Below, piece by piece: positions 3,489-35,179 of a stretch of DNA of 37,769 bases. Location of the stretch: IMG/VR virus record IMGVR_UViG_3300032675_000063, positions 1-37,769 of that record, one strand, 5' to 3'. Under the pieces are notes generated by a model. It was not told where the DNA came from and did no database searches. It was given only the letters and a program-made list of their open reading frames with translations. The first letter of the stretch is position 1; every line of letters begins with the position of its first letter. The position numbers and the translations under genes were made by a program. Source of the stretch: a virus.

Positions 3489-4694
3489 ATGTTTAATCGA
3501 GTTTTTGGTTCACTGGTTGTTTTGGCGTTTTATAGTTTCTTGACGAATCTCTATACTCCAATCGCCACTCTTGTAACTGGTCGAGTTGCTAGCAATCAGT
3601 TTGGTAATAGCGATATGGCATATCTACAGACAGTTTACACGTTCTCGTTTTTTAGTGGTGTGAATGCATTGTTTAGTATTGCTCTTATTATTGTTTTGGT
3701 GGCTATCTGGTTCAAGCCAACAAAGAATTTGATTACAGCTGCGATTAGCGCCTCTCTAGCCTTTATGGTGTTTACATATCAGTCTGATCGAGCATGGGCT
3801 TACGCTGATACGACTGATAAGACCGAAGCGTATACAATTCTTCCCAACCAGACAGCGTTTTGGGTTCCTGATGCCGGCGCCAATAAGGACAGTCAGGCTC
3901 AGTTTGAAAGTGAAGAGTATTATAACGAACGTAAGATTGCTTCAAAGCGTTTCGTAATTCCTCACGCGAAGTTGGCCAACACAGGCGGTTATTATGGATG
4001 GGATTATTATGTTCCAACGGGTCGCTTGTATATTGTTGATCGTACTCCTTATTCTCATGAATGGGTTAAGTCGAGGGAACGTGGCAGCTCAAACACTGAT
4101 CAGTCTTTTCCTTGTCAGTCCAAGGAAGGTTTGAATATTACTGCAGGCGTTAGTATTGCCGCCAGTGTTGCCGAGCAGGATGCAGCCAAGTTTCTTTATA
4201 ACTTCGGTGTTCAGCAGCCAAAGGGCAATCCAAACGATCCACAGGTTATCTTTCAGAGCGTTTATTATGGTCGTAGCCTTTGGAGTGTAATGGACGATGT
4301 TGGTCGTAAGAAGGTTCAGACTCTGGTTTGTAACGAAATTGGTCGTCGTACTTTCGATAAAGCCAACGAAGATTATGTACCAATGATGGACGATATCGAG
4401 AAGAACGTTAGGGCATATTTCAAGAACTTTGGTATCACTATCAACTTTATTGGTTGGGCCGATACTTTTGAATTTGACAGTGAAGTTCAGCGTACTGTCA
4501 ATAACTTCTATGAAGCAGCCAAGCTTGGTCCGGTCATGGCAACTCTTCAGGCCACTGCACAGCTTGATGTTCAGCGTGGATTGGCAAGCGGTATGGATAA
4601 GCACGGTCTTCCTATGTTTGTCTCGCCGGGAATTATTGAGGGCTTGATTAACCTCGTACCAAAGGCCCCTGCTTCTCCGGTTCCTACAAAATAA
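3489..4694 (+). CDS. membrane-anchored SPFH/band-7-like protein, 401 aa
   Basis: Three hydrophobic segments (about residues 8-30, 52-75 and 80-98) are followed by a soluble domain. That domain contains YYVPTGRLYIVDRTPYS, then CQSKEGLNITAGVSIAASV with EQDAAKFLYNFG, and later GITINFIGWADTFEFDSEVQ. This is the strand/helix pattern of the SPFH (stomatin/prohibitin/flotillin/HflK-C) domain, whose members form membrane-attached oligomers. The C-terminus is Pro-rich. Phage SPFH proteins are known but their role is not; protecting the membrane or regulating host FtsH-type proteolysis is possible. ATG 3489 has GAAAGGAAA upstream. It is the last early-type gene before the AT-richer late-type region. 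Confidence 0.65.
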   Translation: MFNRVFGSLVVLAFYSFLTNLYTPIATLVTGRVASNQFGNSDMAYLQTVYTFSFFSGVNALFSIALIIVLVAIWFKPTKNLITAAISASLAFMVFTYQSDRAWAYADTTDKTEAYTILPNQTAFWVPDAGANKDSQAQFESEEYYNERKIASKRFVIPHAKLANTGGYYGWDYYVPTGRLYIVDRTPYSHEWVKSRERGSSNTDQSFPCQSKEGLNITAGVSIAASVAEQDAAKFLYNFGVQQPKGNPNDPQVIFQSVYYGRSLWSVMDDVGRKKVQTLVCNEIGRRTFDKANEDYVPMMDDIEKNVRAYFKNFGITINFIGWADTFEFDSEVQRTVNNFYEAAKLGPVMATLQATAQLDVQRGLASGMDKHGLPMFVSPGIIEGLINLVPKAPASPVPTK

Positions 4695-4736: not shown

Positions 4737-5528
4737 ATGGTTACTAGAAATTACGGTTGGAAACAATCTAAACCAGACAGTAGAGACTTTAGACTTAAAA
4801 CAGTTAATCCTGTTGTCTATAAGTCTCTACCTTCATCAGTCGATCTAAGACCTATTATTCCGGAAGTTTTGGATCAAGGCGAATTAGGTTCTTGTACTGC
4901 TCAGGCTTTAACAATGGCAAACAGAATTGCAAGAATTAAACAGGGCTTACCTGATATGGAATTATCAAGGCTCTTTGTTTATTATAATGAAAGATTAATG
5001 GAAGGCACTGTTGATGAAGATGCTGGTGCTGAAATAAGAGACGGTGCTAAAGTATTAGGAACATATGGCGCTCCTATTGAAACTGATTGGCCTTATGTTG
5101 AAAGTAAGTTTAAAGATAAACCAACAGAACAATCTTATAAAGACGCTATACAAGATGAAGCAAGCCAATACATGACTGTTGAACAAACCGAAAATGAAAT
5201 AAAGATGTGCCTTCATGAAGGTTATCCAGTTGTATTTGGTGCTAATATCTTTCAGGAATTTGAAGGAGACGAAGTGGCTAGAACGGGTATTGTACCAATG
5301 CCAACTCCTAACTCAAGATCGGCTGGCGGTCATGCTATTCTTATCGTTGGTTATGATGATAATACAAGAAAATTTACAGTTTTAAATAGTTGGTCCAAAG
5401 ATTGGGGTGATAAAGGTTATTGTTATTTTCCTTATGATTATATTACCGATCCAAATCTATGTTCAGACTTCTGGACCATAAGAACAATTGCTCCTGTTAA
5501 TCCGGATCGTAAAGTTATAATTCCTTAA
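4737..5528 (+). CDS. papain-like (C1A) cysteine peptidase, 263 aa
   Basis: The C1 motifs appear in order. The oxyanion Gln and catalytic Cys are in LDQGELGSCTAQAL (Q47, C53), the catalytic His is in SAGGHAILIVGYDD (about residue 200), and the Asn is in VLNSWSKDWGDKGYCYFPY (about 222). The N-terminal YGWKQSKPDSRDF resembles the short pro-region of bacterial and phage C1 proteins. There is no signal peptide. The length suits a single peptidase domain. A late-type promoter and a strong ribosome binding site precede it, so it is probably made late and could process virion proteins or be packaged. The substrate is unknown. Confidence 0.85.
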   Translation: MVTRNYGWKQSKPDSRDFRLKTVNPVVYKSLPSSVDLRPIIPEVLDQGELGSCTAQALTMANRIARIKQGLPDMELSRLFVYYNERLMEGTVDEDAGAEIRDGAKVLGTYGAPIETDWPYVESKFKDKPTEQSYKDAIQDEASQYMTVEQTENEIKMCLHEGYPVVFGANIFQEFEGDEVARTGIVPMPTPNSRSAGGHAILIVGYDDNTRKFTVLNSWSKDWGDKGYCYFPYDYITDPNLCSDFWTIRTIAPVNPDRKVIIP

Positions 5529-6413: not shown

Positions 6414-6854
6414 ATGACTAACCCATGGACTAATTTTAAATTCGTTGATATGGACAAATATTTTGTAGGTTCTGATCGTCTTTTTGACACACTACAAAAG
6501 GTTCATAAGGATATTGCGAATACAATATCAACAAGTTATCCCCCATACAACATTAAGAAACTTTCAGAAAAAAAGTACGAAATTGAAATCGCTGTTGCTG
6601 GTTTCCCTGAAAGTGCACTAAGTGTTACTCTTGAAGACAATCAGCTTATTGTCAAAGGTAAATTGAACCAAGATGATAAGAAAACCGATGATTATCTTTA
6701 CAAGGGCATTTCCGAAAAGCCTTTTGAACGTAAGTTTACGTTGAACGACAACGTTACTGTTAATAATGCAAAGTATATTAACGGTATGCTTCAAATTACA
6801 TTGGACGCAATGATTGAAGCAAAGAAACTTATGAATATTCCAATCGAAAAATGA
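6414..6854 (+). CDS. small heat-shock protein (Hsp20/IbpA type), 146 aa
   Basis: An alpha-crystallin domain spans about residues 40-140. It begins YPPYNIKKLSEKKYEIEIAV, continues with AGFPESALSVTLEDNQLIV (the AGF motif of IbpA) and ends with the GMLQITL stretch. The N-terminus resembles IbpA-type proteins (NPWTNFKFVDMDKYFVGSDR). These ATP-independent chaperones hold unfolded proteins; T4-like phages often carry one. It has its own sigma70-like promoter, a strong AAAAGGAG site and a terminator directly after, so it is a monocistronic unit and probably well expressed. Confidence 0.9.
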   Translation: MTNPWTNFKFVDMDKYFVGSDRLFDTLQKVHKDIANTISTSYPPYNIKKLSEKKYEIEIAVAGFPESALSVTLEDNQLIVKGKLNQDDKKTDDYLYKGISEKPFERKFTLNDNVTVNNAKYINGMLQITLDAMIEAKKLMNIPIEK

Positions 6855-8100: not shown

Positions 8101-8152
8101 ATATTATTAGCATCTGTGGGCTAATTTTGGCCGGATTGCAAAAGGAGATTTG

Positions 8153-9418
8153 ATGTTTTACACTAGTGTTTTTCAGCGTGGTAATAGAATTTATTACCAA
8201 GGTTACGATAAAGGTTTGAGAGTTAAAGAAGTCGTCAACTACAAACCTTATATGTTTATTCAAAAAAGTAATGGTAAATATAAAACTCTTGATGGTAGAC
8301 CCGTTGAGAAGATGATGTTCGATGATATTTCAGATGCTCGTGATTTCGTTAATCGTTATGAAGATGTAGCGAATATGGAAATATACGGGCTTAATTCATT
8401 CGTTTATACTTTCATCTACGACACGTTCAAAGGTGATATTGATTACGATCCTAATCTGGTTAAGATTGGCATTCTTGATATCGAGTGCGCCGCTGATGAA
8501 GGATTTCCTGATATTCAAAAAGCGGACAAAGAAATCACAGCCATAACAGTGAGATTTAATAATAAAAACTTTGTCTTTGGCTGTGGTAAGTTTACTCCGA
8601 AGGACAATAAAACTTTCTATATTCAATGTCAAGACGAACACGAATTACTTCAGAAGTTTTTGTCTTGTTGGATGTCTCTTGACCTAGATATTGTTACTGG
8701 TTGGAATATAGAATTTTTCGACATTCCATATTTGGTTAATCGTATTCGTGTTCTGTTCAATGAAAAGGAAGCAAAGCGTCTTTCGCCTTGGTTTATTCTT
8801 GATGAAAAGACCGTCGAATTTCGTGGTAAGGAAAATCAAAGTTTCACTCCCGCTGGCATAGCTGTTCTTGATTATTATCAATTGTATCGTAAATTTACAT
8901 TTGGTAATCAGGAATCTTATAAACTCGATTATATTGCTCAGATTGAATTGGGCGAAAAGAAAATTGATCACTCAGAACATAAAAACTTCCTAACATTCTA
9001 TAGAGACGACTTTCAAAAGTTTATTGAATATAATATTCATGACTGCGTTCTGGTTGAACGTCTTGACGATAAAATGAAGTTTCTTGAACAAGTAATGGCT
9101 TTGGCATATGACGCCAAGGTAAATTACAATGATACAATGACAACTGTGCGTCCTTGGGATGTTATTATTCATAATTATCTACTTGATCAAGGTATTGTTA
9201 TTCCTCAGTTCAAGAAACAATCTAATTTTGATAGTTTGGTTGGTGGATACGTCAAGGAACCAAAGATTGGTTTGAGTAGGTGGGTTGTTTCTTTTGATTT
9301 AACATCTCTATACCCAAGTTTAATTCAACAATATAATATTAGCCCCGAAAAAATGATAAACAAAAAAACATTAAAAGAAATGATTGAAAGAGAGAAGAAA
9401 AGACGCGGTTTGACCTAA
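8153..9418 (+). CDS. 43: DNA polymerase gp43, N-terminal fragment (exonuclease + motif A), 421 aa
   Basis: First half of a T4-type family B replicative polymerase. The N-terminal domain is followed by the proofreading exonuclease: ExoI LDIECA (D109, E111), ExoII VTGWNIEFFDIPYL (D190) and ExoIII YNIHD (D297). Palm motif A is SFDLTSLYPSLI (Asp382). The ORF then stops 39 residues later with a very basic tail (EREKKRRGLT). Motifs B and C are in the ORF at 10086. ATG 8153 is chosen over TTG 8150 because AAAGGAG lies 5 nt upstream. Together the fragments total 858 residues, close to the about 900 of T4 gp43, so little is missing. No intein sequences are present at the end. Confidence 0.92.
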   Translation: MFYTSVFQRGNRIYYQGYDKGLRVKEVVNYKPYMFIQKSNGKYKTLDGRPVEKMMFDDISDARDFVNRYEDVANMEIYGLNSFVYTFIYDTFKGDIDYDPNLVKIGILDIECAADEGFPDIQKADKEITAITVRFNNKNFVFGCGKFTPKDNKTFYIQCQDEHELLQKFLSCWMSLDLDIVTGWNIEFFDIPYLVNRIRVLFNEKEAKRLSPWFILDEKTVEFRGKENQSFTPAGIAVLDYYQLYRKFTFGNQESYKLDYIAQIELGEKKIDHSEHKNFLTFYRDDFQKFIEYNIHDCVLVERLDDKMKFLEQVMALAYDAKVNYNDTMTTVRPWDVIIHNYLLDQGIVIPQFKKQSNFDSLVGGYVKEPKIGLSRWVVSFDLTSLYPSLIQQYNISPEKMINKKTLKEMIEREKKRRGLT

Positions 9419-9442: not shown

Positions 9443-10111
9443 ATGAATTATTTAAAGAAATATATTTTAATTATAAGAAGAGCGAAAAATAGAAAAGAAA
9501 TAGACAGAAAATTATACGAATATCATCATGTTTTTCCCGTGTCAATTTATGGTCCAAATGATTTCGTAGTTCCTTTAACTTTAAGAGAACATTACATTTC
9601 TCATAAACTTTTATGGAAAATATTTCGTAAACGTTATGGATCAGAAGACGAAAAAACTAGGAAAATGGCCATGGCTTTTCATTGGATGATTTATGGAAAA
9701 GGTGATACGTATAGACAAAAAATTTTCAATAATTCTTATCTATATGAATCGGCTAGAACTGCAGTCGTTGAATCTAAAAAAGGTAAAAAACGAGTTGATA
9801 TGATTGGAAAGGCTTATTTCGGTGCAGATAGAAAAACTATACTAAAAGGTATAGAAAAAATGAGAGAAAAAAAGACGGGTATGAAAATAAATTATCCCAA
9901 AAATAGATTATCTGCACCATGTTCAAAAGAAAAGTTAGAAAAAATATCTGAACAAAGAAAAAAGACCAAATACAAATATATCAATATGAGCGAAGAAGAA
10001 TTTAATAATTGGTTATCTAAACAGAATTATTACGCTAAAGATGGTCGAATAAATTCTAATGTAACTAGAGCAATTAGGTGGAGAAATGAACATTTTAGAA
10101 AATTTAACTGA
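9443..10111 (+). CDS. free-standing HNH homing endonuclease within gp43, 222 aa
   Basis: The HNH core is near the N-terminus: YEYHHVFPVSIYGPNDF followed by PLTLREHYISHKLL (His28/29, Asn39, then His50 and His54). The rest is Lys-rich and probably binds DNA. It shares layout and core spacing with the HNH protein at 34508. It splits the polymerase gene after motif A, the place expected if its target lies in an intact gp43 gene. The nucleotide sequence is much more A-rich than the polymerase halves, a sign of separate origin. Its last 26 nt overlap the start of the downstream polymerase ORF. Confidence 0.85.
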   Translation: MNYLKKYILIIRRAKNRKEIDRKLYEYHHVFPVSIYGPNDFVVPLTLREHYISHKLLWKIFRKRYGSEDEKTRKMAMAFHWMIYGKGDTYRQKIFNNSYLYESARTAVVESKKGKKRVDMIGKAYFGADRKTILKGIEKMREKKTGMKINYPKNRLSAPCSKEKLEKISEQRKKTKYKYINMSEEEFNNWLSKQNYYAKDGRINSNVTRAIRWRNEHFRKFN

Positions 10112-11399
10112 TGAAGAATTGTATACTCTGGAAAAAATGTTAGATGACATTCGACCTGAATCTTATGATAACTCTTTTATATTTAAAAATAAAACGACGC
10201 CAAAAATAGAAGGTTATTCTTTGACTGCAAACGGTTGTTTATATAAAAATGATTCTCATGGTTTTGCAACGGCGCTTATGCAAAAAATGTTCGATGACAG
10301 GTCGAAATATAAAAAATTGATGATTGAGACTAAAAAAAGATATGAAAAAACCAAAAGCAAGGAAGATGAAAAATTAGTTTCTAGATATAATAATCTCCAA
10401 ATGGCCAAAAAAATTCAACTCAACAGCTTTTATGGAGCCTTGTCTAATATGTATTTTCGTTGGTTTAACTTTGATAATGCAGAATCTATTACTTCGTCAG
10501 GTCAATTAACAATTAAATTTATTATCAATAAGATGAATCAGTTTATGAATAAGATTTGTAAGACTGAAAATGTTGATTACGTTATCGCTTCTGATACTGA
10601 TTCTATCTATGTTACATTTGAACGACTGATTCCTGAAGGCAGCGATGAGCTTAAAGCTGTTAAGTTGATCGATCAATTCTGCGAAAAAAAGATTCAACCA
10701 TATCTTGATATTTGTTATGACGAACTTGCTGGAATGATGAATGCTTATCAGCAGAAGATGCAGATGAAGCGTGAAACCATTGCCAACAAAGGTATTTGGC
10801 GTGGTAAGAAGATGTATATTCTTAACGCTTGGAATGTTGAAGGTGTTCAATATGATAAGCCCAAGTTGAAATTGTCTGGTATTGAAGCTGTTCGTTCTTC
10901 AACACCACATGCTTGCCGCGAAAATATTAAGAAAGCTCTTAGTATAATAATGAACGAGGATCAAGCTTCTCTACAAAAATTCATTGAGGAATTTAGAAAT
11001 GAATTTGCTTCTTTACCGTTTCAGGATGTAGCTTTTCCAAGAGGATTGAAAGGAATAAACAAGTATAAAGATTCCGCTGATATCTACAAGAAAGGAACTC
11101 CAATTCAGGTTAAGGGAGCTCTATTATTCAATAATATGCTCAAAAAGCATAATATTACGAATATACCTCCTCTTTCTGATGGAGATAAAATTAGATTTGC
11201 ATATTTGAAGATACCTAATCCCGTTCAAGACACAGTTATCGCGACTTCTGATCTATTACCCGAACAATTTAACCTTGATAATTATATAGATCGTGATATG
11301 CAATTCAATAAATCGTTTTTGGAACCATTGAAGTCTATAACCGATGTTATTGGTTGGGAAGCAGAACAAAGATCAACGTTGGAGGATTTTTTTGGATGA
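10086..11399 (+). CDS. 43: DNA polymerase gp43, C-terminal fragment (palm/thumb), 437 aa
   Basis: Second half of the split polymerase. After an acidic N-terminal stretch it has motif B AKKIQLNSFYGALSN (about 107-121) and motif C ASDTDSIYV (Asp170 and Asp172). The thumb follows, with KLKLSGIEAVRSSTP, and the C-terminus is STLEDFFG, which fits a sliding-clamp-binding tail. ATG 10086 has AGGTGGAG just upstream, inside the HNH gene. The catalytic aspartate of motif A is on the other polypeptide, so a working enzyme needs both chains to assemble. The first 30 or so residues may be native linker or adapted sequence. Confidence 0.92.
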   Translation: MNILENLTDEELYTLEKMLDDIRPESYDNSFIFKNKTTPKIEGYSLTANGCLYKNDSHGFATALMQKMFDDRSKYKKLMIETKKRYEKTKSKEDEKLVSRYNNLQMAKKIQLNSFYGALSNMYFRWFNFDNAESITSSGQLTIKFIINKMNQFMNKICKTENVDYVIASDTDSIYVTFERLIPEGSDELKAVKLIDQFCEKKIQPYLDICYDELAGMMNAYQQKMQMKRETIANKGIWRGKKMYILNAWNVEGVQYDKPKLKLSGIEAVRSSTPHACRENIKKALSIIMNEDQASLQKFIEEFRNEFASLPFQDVAFPRGLKGINKYKDSADIYKKGTPIQVKGALLFNNMLKKHNITNIPPLSDGDKIRFAYLKIPNPVQDTVIATSDLLPEQFNLDNYIDRDMQFNKSFLEPLKSITDVIGWEAEQRSTLEDFFG

Positions 11400-15345: not shown

Positions 15346-15374
15346 TTGACTTTCATAAAAATCTAAAGTATACT
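15346..15374 (+). promoter_or_regulatory. sigma70-type promoter (TTGACT-17-TATACT)
   Basis: CTTGACTTT with TTGACT at 15346-15351, 17-nt spacer and TATACT at 15369-15374. It drives the 69-aa gene and, by position, the structured RNA region up to the terminator at 15752. Confidence 0.8.
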
Positions 15375-15400: not shown

Positions 15401-15610
15401 ATGAATTATAAGATGAAGGTTGATAACGGTGTTCATCAGGTTTTCGAAACAGCAACAGAACAAATTATCAAAACTTTCGACAACAAAGAAGGTTGTCGCA
15501 AATTTATGCGTCAGCTCAACCTTGGTAGCGGATTCGATGGGTTCACTCCAAGTTTTTTTCTGAAAAAAATTGAAATTAAGAAAAATAAAAACAAAAGAAA
15601 GACTAAATAA
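15401..15610 (+). CDS. unknown small basic protein, 69 aa
   Basis: ATG 15401 has an AAAAAAGGA site upstream. The product begins like a small alpha/beta domain (MKVDNGVHQVFETATEQIIKTF, helix NKEGCRKFMRQLN) and ends in a strongly basic tail of Lys and Arg (about residues 55-69). The pattern of Val-x-x-Phe-Glu-Thr-Ala-Thr-Glu followed by a helix is seen in short phage proteins without known function. It is the only ORF on the transcript that also carries the folded RNA element downstream. Confidence 0.65.
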   Translation: MNYKMKVDNGVHQVFETATEQIIKTFDNKEGCRKFMRQLNLGSGFDGFTPSFFLKKIEIKKNKNKRKTK

Positions 15611-15614
15611 TACA

Positions 15615-15719
15615 AACGAAAATACGTATTGCGCAACGTCGCAAGAGGCAAGAGTCTATAAAGAGACACGGAATAGTTAAGAAAACATGGGTGGGGTTCC
15701 CCTTAACCGTATTTTCGTT
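15615..15719 (+). ncRNA. candidate structured RNA, about 105 nt, four-way junction
   Basis: A perfect 12-bp outer stem pairs AACGAAAATACG (15615-15626) with CGTATTTTCGTT (15708-15719). Enclosed are TTGCG/CGCAA (15629-15633 with 15640-15644), GTCT/AGAC (15654-15657 with 15664-15667) and GTTAAG/CTTAAC (15676-15681 with 15702-15707), the last stacking directly on the outer stem and holding a further GGG/CCC hairpin. No ORF of note lies inside. It sits between the stop at 15610 and an intrinsic terminator at 15724. It is not a tRNA: the acceptor-like stem is too long and there is no TTCRA loop. I know no matching RNA class. Confidence 0.6.
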
Positions 15720-15723
15720 AATT

Positions 15724-15752
15724 AAAGGCGGGCTGAAAAGCTCGCCTTTTTT
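15724..15752 (+). terminator. rho-independent terminator after the RNA element
   Basis: AAAGGCGGGCT pairs with AGCTCGCCTTT around a GAAA tetraloop (one G-T pair), followed by a T run at 15747-15752. It separates the replication block from the late virion block. Confidence 0.9.
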
Positions 15753-15765
15753 ATTATCTAAAAAC

Positions 15766-15773
15766 TATAAATA
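15766..15773 (+). promoter_or_regulatory. T4-type late promoter (TATAAATA)
   Basis: A perfect TATAAATA, 27 nt before the HAD-like gene at 15800 and directly after the terminator. It opens the virion gene block. Confidence 0.75.
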
Positions 15774-15799: not shown

Positions 15800-16447
15800 A
15801 TGATAACGTTTAAAGATTTCGCTGATTTTATTGTTGAAGAAACCAATAATCCAAAGCATGAAATTCATTATTACGATCTAGACGATACTTTGGTTCATCA
15901 CGATAACAGCAAGCTTAGAGTTCACGTCAAAGATTCATCAGGCAAAAGAGTTAGAACCTTGACGAGTTCTGAATTCAATACTCATCAATTGCCTCCTGGA
16001 CATTCATATGATTTTGGCGAGTTCAAATCTTCAGATGTGTTTGGTAAATCAGCGAAACCTATTAAGAAAGTCATAAATAAATTGAAAGGATTGTCTGATA
16101 AAGGTCGTAAAGTAGAAATACTAACAGCGCGCCAAGATTTAGACGATCAGCCTAAATTTGCTCATCATATGATGAAGTTTGGTATCGATATCGGTAAGGT
16201 TCACGTTAGAAGATCTGGTAATCCTCCGAACGAAAAGAAAAAACCCTCAGAGGCAAAGAAAGCAATTATATCGGACGCTATTGATAAACATGGTTATAAA
16301 AGAGTTCATTTGTATGATGATTCAGCGGAGAATTTAGAAGCTATGTTGTCTTTGAAAAAGAAACATAAAGATGTAGAGTTTCACGCGCATCATGTACAAC
16401 ATAACCCAGAAACTGGGGAAACAACTATTACTACGAGGAAAGTTTGA
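15800..16447 (+). CDS. HAD-like phosphatase with capsid-targeting-type N-terminus, 215 aa
   Basis: HAD motifs are visible: YYDLDDTL (nucleophile Asp26 and Asp28), EILTARQD (motif II Thr) and HLYDDSAENL (acidic motif IV). It is probably a small-molecule or nucleotide phosphatase. The first residues, MITFKDFADFIVE, resemble the T4 internal-protein capsid-targeting sequence and contain I-V-E, a match to the gp21 prohead protease consensus (L/I)-x-E. The enzyme would then be packed in the head and injected. It is first in the late operon and shares this N-terminal style with the next three genes. Confidence 0.8.
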   Translation: MITFKDFADFIVEETNNPKHEIHYYDLDDTLVHHDNSKLRVHVKDSSGKRVRTLTSSEFNTHQLPPGHSYDFGEFKSSDVFGKSAKPIKKVINKLKGLSDKGRKVEILTARQDLDDQPKFAHHMMKFGIDIGKVHVRRSGNPPNEKKKPSEAKKAIISDAIDKHGYKRVHLYDDSAENLEAMLSLKKKHKDVEFHAHHVQHNPETGETTITTRKV

Positions 16448-31023: not shown

Positions 31024-32643
31024 ATGATTGATAATTCAATTCTAGTAACAAAAAGAGACGGATCGACTCAGCCGTTAGATCTAAATCGTTTTCATAAAGT
31101 GGTTAGTTGGGCTTGTGAAGGAATCAACAACGTTTCCGAATCAGAGATAGAACTTAAGTCTCATATTCAATTTTATAATAAGATTAAGTCATCAGATATT
31201 CAAGAAACTTTGATCAAGGCTGCCGCCGATCTTATTTCAGAAGAAAATCCCGGTTATCAGTACGTTGCTGGTCGTCTGATCAACTATCATCTAAGAAAAC
31301 AAGTATACGAAAGTCACCTACCATGGAAATTGAAAGATCATGTTAAACACGTTATTTCTCTTGGTTACTACGATCCTGAAATTTCTTCTTTTTATGATGA
31401 TTTTGAACTGGATGTTTTGGATACTTATATTAATCACGATAGGGATTATTCTATCTCTTATGTGGGCATGGAACAATTAAGAGGAAAATACTTAATCAGA
31501 AACAGAGTTACTGGACAGATTTATGAAACTCCTCAAATGGCTTATATGTTGATTGCCATGATACTGTTTCGTAACTATCCTAAAGAAACCAGACTTAAAT
31601 GGGTAAAGGATTTATACGATGCGACAAGCACTTTTGAAATATCGCTGCCGACTCCTATTATGGCAGGTCTCCGTTCGCCTCAAAAGCAATTCTCTTCGTG
31701 CGTTCTTATCGAGACAGATGACAGTCTTGATTCAATCAATGCTTCAGCTTCCGCAATTGTTAAATATGTGTCTCAAAAAGCTGGCATTGGTATTAATGCT
31801 GGTCGTATTCGTGCTCTCGGCTCTCCCATTCGCGCTGGTGATACTACTCACACTGGTGTTATCCCATTTTACAAGCACTTCCAATCAGCAGTTAAGAGCT
31901 GCAGCCAAGGCGGTGTTCGAGGCGGCGCAGCGACTCTTTACTACCCTATCTGGCATTTGGAAGTTGAGGACCTACTAGTTCTCAAGAATAATAAAGGCAC
32001 AGAAGATAATCGTATTCGTGGTTTGGACTATGGTGTCCAGTTTAATAAGGTGATGTATGAACGACTTCTTGTTGGTGGGAATATTACTCTATTCAGCCCT
32101 AGCGACGTCCCTGGTCTTTATGATAGCTTTTTTATTGATCTTGATAAATTCAGATCGCTATATCAAAAATACGAGGCGGATCCGGCGATCAGAAAGAAAT
32201 CAATACCTGCTGTGGACCTATTCTCATCGTTCATGGAAGAGCGCAAGAACACTGGTCGTATCTATTTGCAGAACGTCGACCATGCGAATGATCATGGTTC
32301 GTTCATTAAAGAACTTGCACCAATTCGCCAGTCAAATCTCTGCTGTGTGACTGGAGAAACTTATGTAACTGTTGAAATGATTGACGGTTCAATTCAAGAT
32401 ATAATGATCAAGGATGTTACAATTCAAATGAAAGTTCTTAGTAGAAACAATAATACTGGTAAAGATGAATTTAGACAAATTAAAGCTGCTGCTATGACTA
32501 GAAAGAATGCATCATTGATGAAAATAACTGATGAAAATGGCAACTCTATTGTTTGCACACCAGATCATCGCATCTATACAAAAAACAGAGGATATGTAGA
32601 GGCGCAAAATATTTTAGAAAATGATGAGTTGTTGGTAATATAA
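31024..32643 (+). CDS. nrdA: NrdA N-terminal part fused to N-half of a split intein, 539 aa
   Basis: Residues 1-440 are the first part of class Ia ribonucleotide reductase alpha. There is an ATP-cone (VTKRDGSTQPLDLNRFHKV), then FSSCVL with the Cys equivalent to E. coli Cys225, then GRIYLQNVDH, ending in QSNLC, where Cys440 matches the catalytic Cys439. Residues 441-539 are the N-terminal part of an intein starting CVTGETYVTV. The ORF stops there. The rest of the enzyme is in the ORF at 33391. The product is inactive alone because the residues that complete the active site are on the other chain. Confidence 0.93.
   Translation: MIDNSILVTKRDGSTQPLDLNRFHKVVSWACEGINNVSESEIELKSHIQFYNKIKSSDIQETLIKAAADLISEENPGYQYVAGRLINYHLRKQVYESHLPWKLKDHVKHVISLGYYDPEISSFYDDFELDVLDTYINHDRDYSISYVGMEQLRGKYLIRNRVTGQIYETPQMAYMLIAMILFRNYPKETRLKWVKDLYDATSTFEISLPTPIMAGLRSPQKQFSSCVLIETDDSLDSINASASAIVKYVSQKAGIGINAGRIRALGSPIRAGDTTHTGVIPFYKHFQSAVKSCSQGGVRGGAATLYYPIWHLEVEDLLVLKNNKGTEDNRIRGLDYGVQFNKVMYERLLVGGNITLFSPSDVPGLYDSFFIDLDKFRSLYQKYEADPAIRKKSIPAVDLFSSFMEERKNTGRIYLQNVDHANDHGSFIKELAPIRQSNLCCVTGETYVTVEMIDGSIQDIMIKDVTIQMKVLSRNNNTGKDEFRQIKAAAMTRKNASLMKITDENGNSIVCTPDHRIYTKNRGYVEAQNILENDELLVI
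32344..32640 (+). other. split intein N-fragment (IntN), 99 aa
   Basis: Block A is CVTGETYVTVEMIDG with the essential Cys1. Block B is GNSIVCTPDHRIYTKNRGYV with the TxxH type signature (TPDH). The length of 99 residues fits natural split inteins of phage and metagenomic origin. It joins nrdA after Cys440 and ends at a stop codon without endonuclease domain. Confidence 0.9.
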
Positions 32644-32655
32644 TTTATAAATTAT

Positions 32656-32663
32656 TATAAATA
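32656..32663 (+). promoter_or_regulatory. T4-type late promoter (TATAAATA) before the GIY-YIG gene
   Basis: A perfect TATAAATA between the IntN stop and the endonuclease ATG at 32700. T4 I-TevI is likewise made from a late promoter, which limits the endonuclease to late infection. Confidence 0.7.
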
Positions 32664-32699
32664 GTTCTGAGATAACACTTCTATCAAGGAATCATTTAT

Positions 32700-33404
32700 A
32701 TGGCTATAGTTTACAAAATAACGAACAGAGTGAACGGTAAAAGTTATATTGGTCACTCTGTTCGAACATTAGAACAAAGATGGAAATCTCATCTATCATC
32801 TGTTAGGCAGGGAAGTAAATTTAGATTTCATTCTGCTATTCGAAAATATGGTGTAGATCAATGGGATCATGAAATTATTTTTGAACATAATAATGTTGAT
32901 ATTTGTAAGAAAAAAGAAGAAGAGATGATTGTTGGATTTGATCTCATGAATAATAAAAAAGGATATAATGCTAAACCAGGAGGATGCGGTGGTTGGATTG
33001 TTCCTGATAAAAAATATGAATTATGGGTAAAAAAACAATCTGAAAATAATATAGGATTAAAAAATAATAATAGTACGGGATACACAAACGAAGAATTGAT
33101 TGAAATTGGTAAAAAGGTGTGTTATGATCTTGGAAGAATTGTAGGTCAAAAGACAATGGTCAAAGAATGTAAAAAGATAGGGATAAGATTTCCTAAATCA
33201 TTCAGACCAATGAGATTTGATGGAAGTTATAAAAAATATGCTGCTATTCTTGAAAAAGAGTTAGATATGAAATTCAATCCATATTTTCGTTCTGAAGAAC
33301 AGAGACAAATATACAGAGAAAAATATACTGGCACTGTTGGACCCAACGTTGGAACTAAAGTTATCATAGATTCAGAAGGAAAAAGAAAACATGTTAAAAA
33401 TTGA
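32700..33404 (+). CDS. GIY-YIG homing endonuclease in the split-intein gap, 234 aa
   Basis: The GIY-YIG nuclease domain is at the N-terminus: MAIVYKITNRVNGKSYIGHS (Tyr5, Tyr16, Gly18), then LEQRWKSH (Arg27), AIRKYG and a KKEEEMI helix supplying the metal-binding Glu. The C-terminal part is basic and probably recognises DNA (GRIVGQKTMVKECKKIGIRF). It stands as a separate gene between IntN and IntC. The expected target is an intein-free nrdA. AT content is high. Its last 14 nt overlap the start of the NrdA C-terminal ORF. Confidence 0.9.
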   Translation: MAIVYKITNRVNGKSYIGHSVRTLEQRWKSHLSSVRQGSKFRFHSAIRKYGVDQWDHEIIFEHNNVDICKKKEEEMIVGFDLMNNKKGYNAKPGGCGGWIVPDKKYELWVKKQSENNIGLKNNNSTGYTNEELIEIGKKVCYDLGRIVGQKTMVKECKKIGIRFPKSFRPMRFDGSYKKYAAILEKELDMKFNPYFRSEEQRQIYREKYTGTVGPNVGTKVIIDSEGKRKHVKN

Positions 33405-33489
33405 ACATTTAAATTATACAGAAGATGTCTATGATATTACTGTAGATAAAAATGAAAACTTTTATGCTAATGGTATTTTAGTTCATAAC
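33391..33489 (+). other. split intein C-fragment (IntC), 33 aa
   Basis: Block F is EDVYDITVDKNENFYANG and block G is ILVHN with the terminal His-Asn, followed by Cys+1 (33490-33492). All residues for branching and Asn cyclisation are present, so splicing competence is likely. Confidence 0.9.
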
Positions 33490-34464
33490 TGCGAAATTGA
33501 CTTGCCTACAAAGCCATTGAAAGATATTAACGATGAAAATGGAGAGATTAGTCTGTGTACTTTGAGTGCGATAAACTGGGGCAAAATTCGTGATCCTGCA
33601 GATTTCGAACGTCCTTGTACTCTCGCTGTTCGTGCTTTGGACGAGTTACTTGACTATCAAGATTATCCAGTTCTTGCTGCCAAAAACTCCACTATGGCCA
33701 GACGACCTCTTGGTGTCGGTATTATTAACCTCGCTTATTGGTTGGCTCGTAATGATCTTAGCTATCAGTCAATTGATCATGATGGATTGAGTAAGCTTCA
33801 TTCATTCGCAGAAGCTTGGTCATATTATTTAATTAAAGCGTCCATTGATCTAGCGGAGGAAAAAGGTGCGTGTCCAAAAAGTAATGAAACAAAGTACAGC
33901 CAAGGTGTGTTCCCCATAAACACCTATAAAAGAGAATTGGACGAAATCGTATCGCCTGCGTATAGGATGGATTGGGTTTCGTTGGGCGCTAAAGCATTAC
34001 GAGTTGGCATCAGAAACTCAACGCTTATGGCTCTCATGCCATCAGAGACATCAGCACAGATTAGCAACGCAACGAATGGTATTGAGCCGCCAAGATCGCT
34101 TGTCTCTGTTAAACAGTCTAAAGATGGCGTCCTTAAACAAGTTGTACCAGAAGTTCGTAAACTTAAGAAGAAATACGACCTACTTTGGGACCAACAGTCA
34201 CCCGAAGGATATCTTAAGATTTGCGGGGTATTGCAAAAGTTCATTGATCAAGGAATATCCGTTAATACCTCGTACAACCCAAAGTTCTATGAAGAAGAAC
34301 AAATCCCTATGTCGGAAATGTTAAAGCACTTGCTGATGTTTTATAAGTATGGTGGCAAACAATTATACTATCTGAACACTGCAGATGGCGCTGGTGAATA
34401 CGAAGAAGCACCTTTGGCTGCTGGTGTTGTTGAAGATGAATCCTGCGAGTCTTGTAAAATATAG
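33391..34464 (+). CDS. nrdA: C-half of split intein fused to NrdA C-terminal part, 357 aa
   Basis: Residues 1-33 are the intein C-fragment. From Cys34 the NrdA sequence resumes: CEIDLPTKPLKDINDENGEI aligns with the E. coli region just after Cys439, with the Glu equivalent to Glu441. Further on come SLCTLSAINWG (Cys462 equivalent) and NTSYNPKFYE. The C-terminus is CESCKI, matching the redox-active CxxxxC-type tail of NrdA in a shorter CxxC form. Spliced NrdA would have 440 + 324 = 764 residues, close to E. coli's 761, so nothing is missing. Confidence 0.93.
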   Translation: MLKIEHLNYTEDVYDITVDKNENFYANGILVHNCEIDLPTKPLKDINDENGEISLCTLSAINWGKIRDPADFERPCTLAVRALDELLDYQDYPVLAAKNSTMARRPLGVGIINLAYWLARNDLSYQSIDHDGLSKLHSFAEAWSYYLIKASIDLAEEKGACPKSNETKYSQGVFPINTYKRELDEIVSPAYRMDWVSLGAKALRVGIRNSTLMALMPSETSAQISNATNGIEPPRSLVSVKQSKDGVLKQVVPEVRKLKKKYDLLWDQQSPEGYLKICGVLQKFIDQGISVNTSYNPKFYEEEQIPMSEMLKHLLMFYKYGGKQLYYLNTADGAGEYEEAPLAAGVVEDESCESCKI

Positions 34465-34507: not shown

Positions 34508-35179
34508 ATGGACTATAAAAAAATATATGATAATCTGATAATCAGAGCACAAAATAGAGTAACAAATGGACAAATATATTACGAACTTCACCATATCATC
34601 CCAAGATGTATGAATGGTTCTGATGATTGGAGTAATCTTGTCTATTTGTTACCAGAAGAACATTATCTAGCGCATCAACTATTAGTAAAAATATATCCTG
34701 AAATATTTGAATTAGCTTTTGCTGCAAATATGATGTGTACAAATAGACCAAGCAATAAGTTGTACGGATGGATTAGAAGAAGAATTTCAGATAATATGAA
34801 ACGAAATAATCCAAATGCTGTCGGTAAATCTAGAAGAGAATATATACAAAAGAATGGTCCTGTTGAAGTTGATAGAAGTTATATTACAGATGAATATAGA
34901 AAAAAATGTAGTGAAGGTAAAATAGGTTCTAAAAATCCGATGCATGGAAAATTGCCATGGGAACATTCAAGAGCAACGAATGAAACAAAAAAAGAATGGG
35001 CAAAGGCTGATGAGTATTATAATTGGTGGAAAGAAACAAAAAAATCATACCACGCAATGGCTATAAATTTTGGGTTCGATAAACCAATGATGACACATCA
35101 TAATATGATTAATAAATTTAGAGAAGGTTGGGTTCCAAATGAAGATAACAACTGGAAGGATTTTAAATGCAAGATTTGA
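34508..35179 (+). CDS. HNH homing endonuclease between nrdA and nrdB, 223 aa
   Basis: The HNH core YYELHHIIPRCMNGSDDWSN followed by LLPEEHYLAHQLL (His28/29, Asn43, His52, His56) has the same layout as the HNH protein inside gp43 (YEYHHVFP ... REHYISHKLL), so the two are relatives. The middle is basic (NPMHGKLPW, a NUMOD-like DNA-binding stretch), and the C-terminus has a helix-turn-helix-like segment. T4 itself has mobE between nrdA and nrdB, so the site is a known hot spot for such elements. It overlaps the next start by 13 nt. Confidence 0.87.
   Translation: MDYKKIYDNLIIRAQNRVTNGQIYYELHHIIPRCMNGSDDWSNLVYLLPEEHYLAHQLLVKIYPEIFELAFAANMMCTNRPSNKLYGWIRRRISDNMKRNNPNAVGKSRREYIQKNGPVEVDRSYITDEYRKKCSEGKIGSKNPMHGKLPWEHSRATNETKKEWAKADEYYNWWKETKKSYHAMAINFGFDKPMMTHHNMINKFREGWVPNEDNNWKDFKCKI

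Follow-up and report, generated by a model that had tools for sequence, protein, structure and literature searches.

What is encoded between the small ORF and the HAD-like ORF of an uncultured T4-like phage, and which function could it serve during infection? The window, i.e., the whole stretch of 37,769 nt analysed here, is a T4-like phage contig (37.8 kb) carrying genes for a T4-type DNA polymerase, a UvsX-like recombinase, a gp41-type helicase, primase, ligase and ribonucleotide reductase. For the region in question, the initial annotation had described a perfect 12-bp outer stem enclosing inner stems of 5, 4 and 6 bp, the last one stacked on the outer stem and holding a GGG/CCC hairpin, with an intrinsic terminator directly after the RNA. 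Refolding reproduced this description exactly, assigning positions 15615–15719 (+ strand) to a four-way-junction RNA of ~105 nt without the terminator (single-sequence fold), in which P0 forms a perfect 12-bp stem (15615–15626 paired with 15708–15719) and P3, containing the GGG/CCC hairpin, stacks on P0 with a spacer of 0 nt; the terminator was located at 15724–15749. The following features were assigned to the locus:

15401–15610, + strand: 69-aa ORF, a syntenic neighbour of the RNA and not an obligate partner
15602–15609, + strand: predicted T4-type late promoter −10 element, GACTAAATA (consensus TATAAATA), read in the sequence, with a predicted start at ~15614–15616
15615–15626, + strand: 5′ strand of outer stem P0, AACGAAAAUACG (single-sequence fold and covariation)
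15629–15644, + strand: hairpin P1 of 5 bp (15629–15633 with 15640–15644), preceded by a 2-nt UA linker
15645–15653, + strand: junction J12, GAGGCAAGA, with near-invariant GNGGCA (column conservation)
15654–15667, + strand: hairpin P2 of 4 bp (15654–15657 with 15664–15667), lengthened in a sub-group
15668–15675, + strand: junction J23, ACGGAAUA, with invariant GGAA (column conservation)
15676–15707, + strand: P3 of 6 bp (15676–15681 with 15702–15707), internal loop, and P3b of 3 bp closing the heptaloop
15692–15698, + strand: heptaloop UGGGGUU, invariant in a loop-blind pattern test
15708–15719, + strand: 3′ strand of outer stem P0, CGUAUUUUCGUU, 0 nt from P3 (fold and covariation)
15724–15752, + strand: intrinsic terminator (11-bp stem, GAAA loop, T run), predicted to end the RNA
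15766–15773, + strand: a further late promoter, TATAAATA, for the HAD-like ORF at 15800 and separate from the RNA unit

Without the terminator, the folding energy is only mildly unusual (z −1.95, with 10 of 200 shuffles equally good); inclusion of the terminator, which contributes part of the value, yields z −3.64. Since the energy of the single sequence is thus unimpressive, the case for the RNA rests on its homologues.

The search for homologues started from the neighbouring proteins, which served as RNA-independent anchors. Where relatives of the downstream HAD-like protein or of the upstream 69-aa ORF are encoded, the intergenic region often contains the same RNA, its stems differing greatly in sequence. 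A first DNA pattern retrieved 74 contigs (complete listing) and two further DNA patterns at least 120 contigs each among the matches listed. Covariance models R1 and R2 confirmed the RNA in at least 225 IMG/VR contigs (74 + 65 + 86), this number being a lower bound. One copy is present in each of 15 records with a match; apparent second copies, scoring 15–18 bits, lie inside the helicase gene and were dismissed as chance, and three loci matched by the patterns (L228, L325 and L341) were discarded as false positives. Across the family, the RNA measures ~95–135 nt plus terminator (~105 nt plus terminator in the phage of the window), a sub-group possessing a longer P2 and an additional hairpin within the P3 internal loop. 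In 14 T4-like records from isolates or single cells (T4, HTVC008M, Melnitz, P-SSM2 and S-SM2 among them), the covariance model detected no copy, and blastn searches started from the window and from three further members returned no isolate match. A looser pattern produced one chance match in the isolate and single-cell records and one in an RNA-less contig. Cellular homologues were rejected, as the 16 GTDB contigs matching the first pattern all did so by chance and lack the fold. Likewise, a cyanophage origin was rejected, no psbA being found in 13 RNA-bearing contigs, some of which are fragments.

Two alignments fitted to the model, and hence both leaning towards it, were evaluated for covariation: A5, comprising 100 diverse members, and A6, which adds members retrieved by a loop-omitting pattern and contains 102 rows, two of them chance matches from the helicase gene. 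In A5, both sides vary in 27 of the 30 pairs, the other three being largely fixed by the search pattern. A covariance search for compensatory changes in the stems had been proposed at the outset as a check, and its outcome strongly favours the fold: in the model-fitted A6, double-sided compensatory changes occur in all 30 pairs, amounting to 955 compensatory cells. Altogether 89.5 % of the cells pair in A6, versus 31–44 % when the partners are slid by 1–3 columns, and the covariation score is 0.764 as compared to 0.226 for shuffles and 0.06–0.15 for slid partners. All helices take part in this signal (A6): double-sided changes are found at every modelled pair of P0, the inner six pairs of which are paired to 97.5 %; P1 shows compensatory changes in 5 of 5 pairs (88 % paired) and P2 in 4 of 4 (83 % paired); P3 and P3b, paired to 99.7 % and 100 %, respectively, vary on both sides of every pair. 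The same tendency was observed in a 12-sequence MAFFT alignment that was not structure-fitted (19 pairs versus 9.8 shuffled; score 0.287 versus 0.151). When A5 was ranked by mutual information, i.e., with pairing left unused, the top 16 ranks were taken by 16 model pairs, and this ranking yielded no additional helix indicative of a pseudoknot. Covariation among the homologues hence confirms, on comparative sequence grounds, that the structured RNA is a real family with a fold beyond chance. Were the DNA or the opposite strand the functional entity, A-C mismatches should match G-U in frequency. Within the core helices, G-U occurs 120 times versus 22 times for A-C (p ~2e-17; 87 versus 17 when counted over distinct helix variants), and this excess of G-U over A-C identifies RNA of the + strand as the functional molecule. 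No conserved reading frame runs across the RNA, the spacings between the invariant blocks falling in all three phases.

The predicted late promoter ACTAAATA (15602–15609) is placed for an RNA start at the base of the outer stem; with the usual spacing of T4 late promoters, transcription would begin at ~15615, the first base of P0. An element of the TATAAATA type was found just upstream in 95 of the 100 members (its end within ~22 nt of the model start), and four others have CTAAATA. In 91 of the 95, the element ends 0–7 nt before the RNA, its background frequency being 0.024 per 60 nt. An intrinsic terminator follows at a median distance of 6 nt in 99 of 100 homologues, the contig ending at this point in the 100th. 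It forms in 96 of 99 minimum-energy folds of RNA plus terminator and is therefore unopposed, leaving no obvious switch. In 70 of the 100 homologues, a second late promoter is located 20–260 nt downstream. A homologue of the late sigma factor gp55 (E ~1e-20 or better) is encoded on six of 13 RNA-bearing contigs tested, among them both contigs larger than 160 kb, and the other seven may be fragments. From this promoter and terminator architecture, the RNA is predicted to constitute an autonomous T4-type late transcription unit. The initial annotation had attributed a promoter of its own to the 69-aa ORF: a sigma-70-like site at 15346–15374 would indeed serve this ORF, the promoter relevant to the RNA being instead the late one at 15602–15609. 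In the window, six TATAAATA elements were counted (at 15766, 21013, 25476, 32656, 34480 and 35740), all on the + strand and none on the − strand.

The order uvsX, gp41 helicase, small ORF and RNA is conserved, and the genes further downstream differ between phages. In 96 of 100 cases, a member of the small-ORF family lies no more than 500 nt from the RNA, in 87 on the same strand and in 9 on the opposite one. In about nine members the RNA is thus inverted relative to its neighbour and points at it; because of these inverted copies, a role as 3′ UTR or as cis-regulatory element (riboswitch) cannot be the shared function. The small ORF was also rejected as a partner of the RNA, since it is widespread in phages lacking the latter. 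A natural RNA-less state is represented by locus L024, where the small ORF and the adjoining terminator (~1650–1980) have no RNA between them. The ORF itself belongs to an ORFan family of 60–100 aa with the core LNLGGGFDGWTPSF (15401–15610 in the window; loci L035–L081), occurring also beyond the RNA-bearing clade, and no PHROG or Pfam match was obtained for this family. The position of the RNA had been taken as the border between the replication and late gene blocks; such a border is not clean, genes for primase, ligase and ribonucleotide reductase being located further downstream.

Invariant or near-invariant bases reside in the unpaired junctions GNGGCA and GGAA and in the heptaloop UGGGGUU (column conservation in A5). 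Some of these bases were part of the search patterns, so that their invariance is partly ascertained, with the exception of the heptaloop and of the members fetched via proteins. A loop-blind pattern composed of the promoter, AGAGGCA and GGAATAG recovered 79 distinct real members, 78 of which possess the heptaloop UGGGGUU, and J12 is also present in members retrieved solely via neighbouring proteins. P3b varies around the constant heptaloop (GG/CC to CG/CG, AG/CU, CC/GG and AC/GU). Neither sequence nor size is conserved in the P1 loop, and P2 is highly variable in length. The P0–P1 linker measures 2 nt in 71 of 100 members and the P3–P0 junction 0 nt in 85 of 100.

At gathering score, no Rfam 15 family matches the window (including manA, wcaG, Ocean-V, 6S, tmRNA, ribozymes and riboswitches), and relaxed thresholds gave only sub-threshold chance matches for the window and for 15 loci of divergent members. 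ARAGORN predicted 0 tRNAs in the window, and the literature searched contained no description of the RNA. The earlier view of a new structured RNA that is not a tRNA and fits no class is thus borne out by the negative ARAGORN and Rfam results together with the positive covariation. Two stable RNAs of T4, C and D (rnaC, rnaD), are comparable in that they are small, are not tRNAs and have no known function. Whereas they are encoded within the tRNA cluster of T4, the new RNA lies at the gp41 locus with a predicted late promoter and a terminator to itself, and covariance model R2 matches nothing in the whole T4 genome, i.e., neither of the two. The RNA motifs manA (RF01745) and wcaG (RF01761) were found in marine T4-like cyanophages by comparative genomics (PMC2864571). 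Like the new RNA, they are structured and conserved in aquatic T4-like phages; they differ in being located in 5′ UTRs of metabolic genes, as putative cis-regulators (PMC2864571). Neither motif was matched in the window at E up to 10, nor at E up to 1 in the 15 loci of divergent members. Melnitz-like phages encode a permuted tmRNA with a glutamine riboswitch (PMC9004378). Here, too, an aquatic T4-like phage has a gene for a noncoding RNA, but tmRNA is much larger and includes a tRNA and a tag domain; no tmRNA was detected in the window by ARAGORN or Rfam. A type III antitoxin RNA, which would consist of repeated pseudoknot units beside a toxin gene, was dismissed in view of a single unit in place of repeats, the lack of a pseudoknot signal and the variable downstream neighbour. 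The packaging RNA (pRNA) of phage phi29 is a phage-encoded, structured RNA of ~120 nt with strong covariation that acts in trans. The new RNA resembles it in size class, phage origin and covariation and has no sequence or Rfam match to it. Packaging RNAs of the phi29 type bind the portal/connector and are needed for DNA packaging; to our knowledge, T4-type packaging motors are not known to require RNA. Judged by these comparisons, the RNA class is new, a claim that concerns the class and not its mechanism, and the broad category, phage small RNA, is already known. Fremin and co-workers have reportedly published a large-scale compilation of structured-RNA candidates from phages and viruses, in which the present family may be an uncharacterised entry.

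Sequence analysis has established that the RNA has homologues, a conserved fold and a defined functional strand, that a late-type promoter and a terminator flank it, and that it is independent of the neighbouring genes. We consider it probable that T4-like phages devote a late gene to this small RNA and that it acts in trans, its invariant junctions and loop binding a specific protein or ribonucleoprotein (RNP) of phage or host origin. Transcription would be initiated by a gp55-type late sigma factor where the outer stem begins and stopped ~135 nt further on by the intrinsic terminator. The resulting compact four-way-junction RNA, expressed late in infection, would present GNGGCA, GGAA and UGGGGUU on a covarying scaffold and, instead of pairing as an antisense RNA, act in trans by binding its specific phage or host partner. 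What speaks for recognition by a protein or RNP is the location of the conserved bases, which occupy single-stranded junctions and one loop, whereas the scaffold varies freely; invariant unpaired bases are, however, equally compatible with an RNA that binds a ligand, is catalytic or pairs with a fixed target. The phage small RNA suggested in the initial annotation is supported; the 3′ UTR control element suggested alongside is contradicted as a general role by the RNA's own late promoter and the inverted copies in some phages, and the third suggestion, a host-factor decoy, stays a candidate role. More tentatively, and with less than even confidence, the RNA could be the core of a late RNP or a shape-based mimic of a host RNA (e.g., tRNA), and thereby represent a previously unrecognised phage RNA class, retained across a large uncultured T4-like clade as a dedicated late structural or counter-host RNA. 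We know of no precedent for such an RNA in T4 biology.

Among the alternatives, a trans-acting antisense sRNA using UGGGGUU (or the exposed GNGGCA) as seed for one fixed target, e.g., a phage mRNA or an rRNA or tRNA of the host, would agree with the late sRNA-like unit, its intrinsic terminator and U tail, with a G-rich heptaloop on a stable stem as plausible kissing loop, and with the constancy of this loop while its stem changes. Targets in mRNA, however, usually drift, so that seeds differ between phages, whereas the loop is the same across highly diverged members; moreover, the window contains the complement AACCCCA a single time, with neither enrichment nor depletion beyond the general rarity of CCCC, and most invariant bases are held by the junctions and not by an open seed. 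We regard antisense action as rather unlikely. Still less probability is given to a tRNA-shaped decoy or mimic that would occupy a host enzyme with affinity for tRNA or a defence based on an anticodon nuclease. The four-way cloverleaf with its 2-nt P0–P1 linker and 0-nt P3–P0 junction in most members, as in tRNAs, and the stacked arm with a terminal loop of 7 nt are tRNA-like; unlike a tRNA, however, the RNA has no T-loop consensus, anticodon arm or CCA at the 3′ end and a P1–P2 junction of 9–10 nt, ARAGORN was negative, P2 length and the P1 loop vary, and topology alone constitutes weak evidence.

A cis-acting riboswitch, attenuator or 3′-UTR stabiliser of adjacent genes would account for the RNA ending at a terminator and, in most members, lying just after the small ORF. 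A riboswitch or attenuator would form the leader of a gene downstream and include an antiterminator mutually exclusive with the terminator. This explanation is largely refuted and appears very improbable, considering the RNA's own late promoter and the separate one often following it, the terminator free of a competing fold, the copies inverted with respect to the same neighbour and the variable downstream genes. Similarly, the presence of an extended inverted repeat, once per record and at a fixed place in the genome, could suggest an element acting at the DNA level (cruciform, recombination, origin or packaging site), but the strand-specific excess of G-U is expected only for RNA of the + strand and promoter and terminator are tightly coupled to the RNA, which refutes this as the main role and leaves it hardly any credence.

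T4 is among the best-studied phages, yet its uncultured aquatic relatives carry a strongly constrained, predicted late RNA gene that is absent from the catalogues searched. The strong constraint, the single-copy locus and the invariant loop and junctions imply a specific function in late infection, candidates for which are assembly, packaging, translation takeover, RNA turnover and counter-defence. The RNA is small, self-contained and readily synthesised, and it provides a sharp annotation marker for a phage clade without a detected isolate.

Several further genes of the window were noted. The DNA polymerase is split into an N-terminal (8150–9418) and a C-terminal ORF (10086–11399) with a homing-endonuclease-like ORF (9443–10111) between them. 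Similarly, the large subunit of ribonucleotide reductase (31024–34464) consists of two ORFs around a GIY-YIG endonuclease ORF (32700–33404) and is followed by a weakly HNH-like ORF (34508–35179). Genes for a papain-family cysteine protease (4737–5528) and an SPFH/Band 7 protein (3489–4694) are accompanied by a nearby Hsp20 gene (6414–6854).
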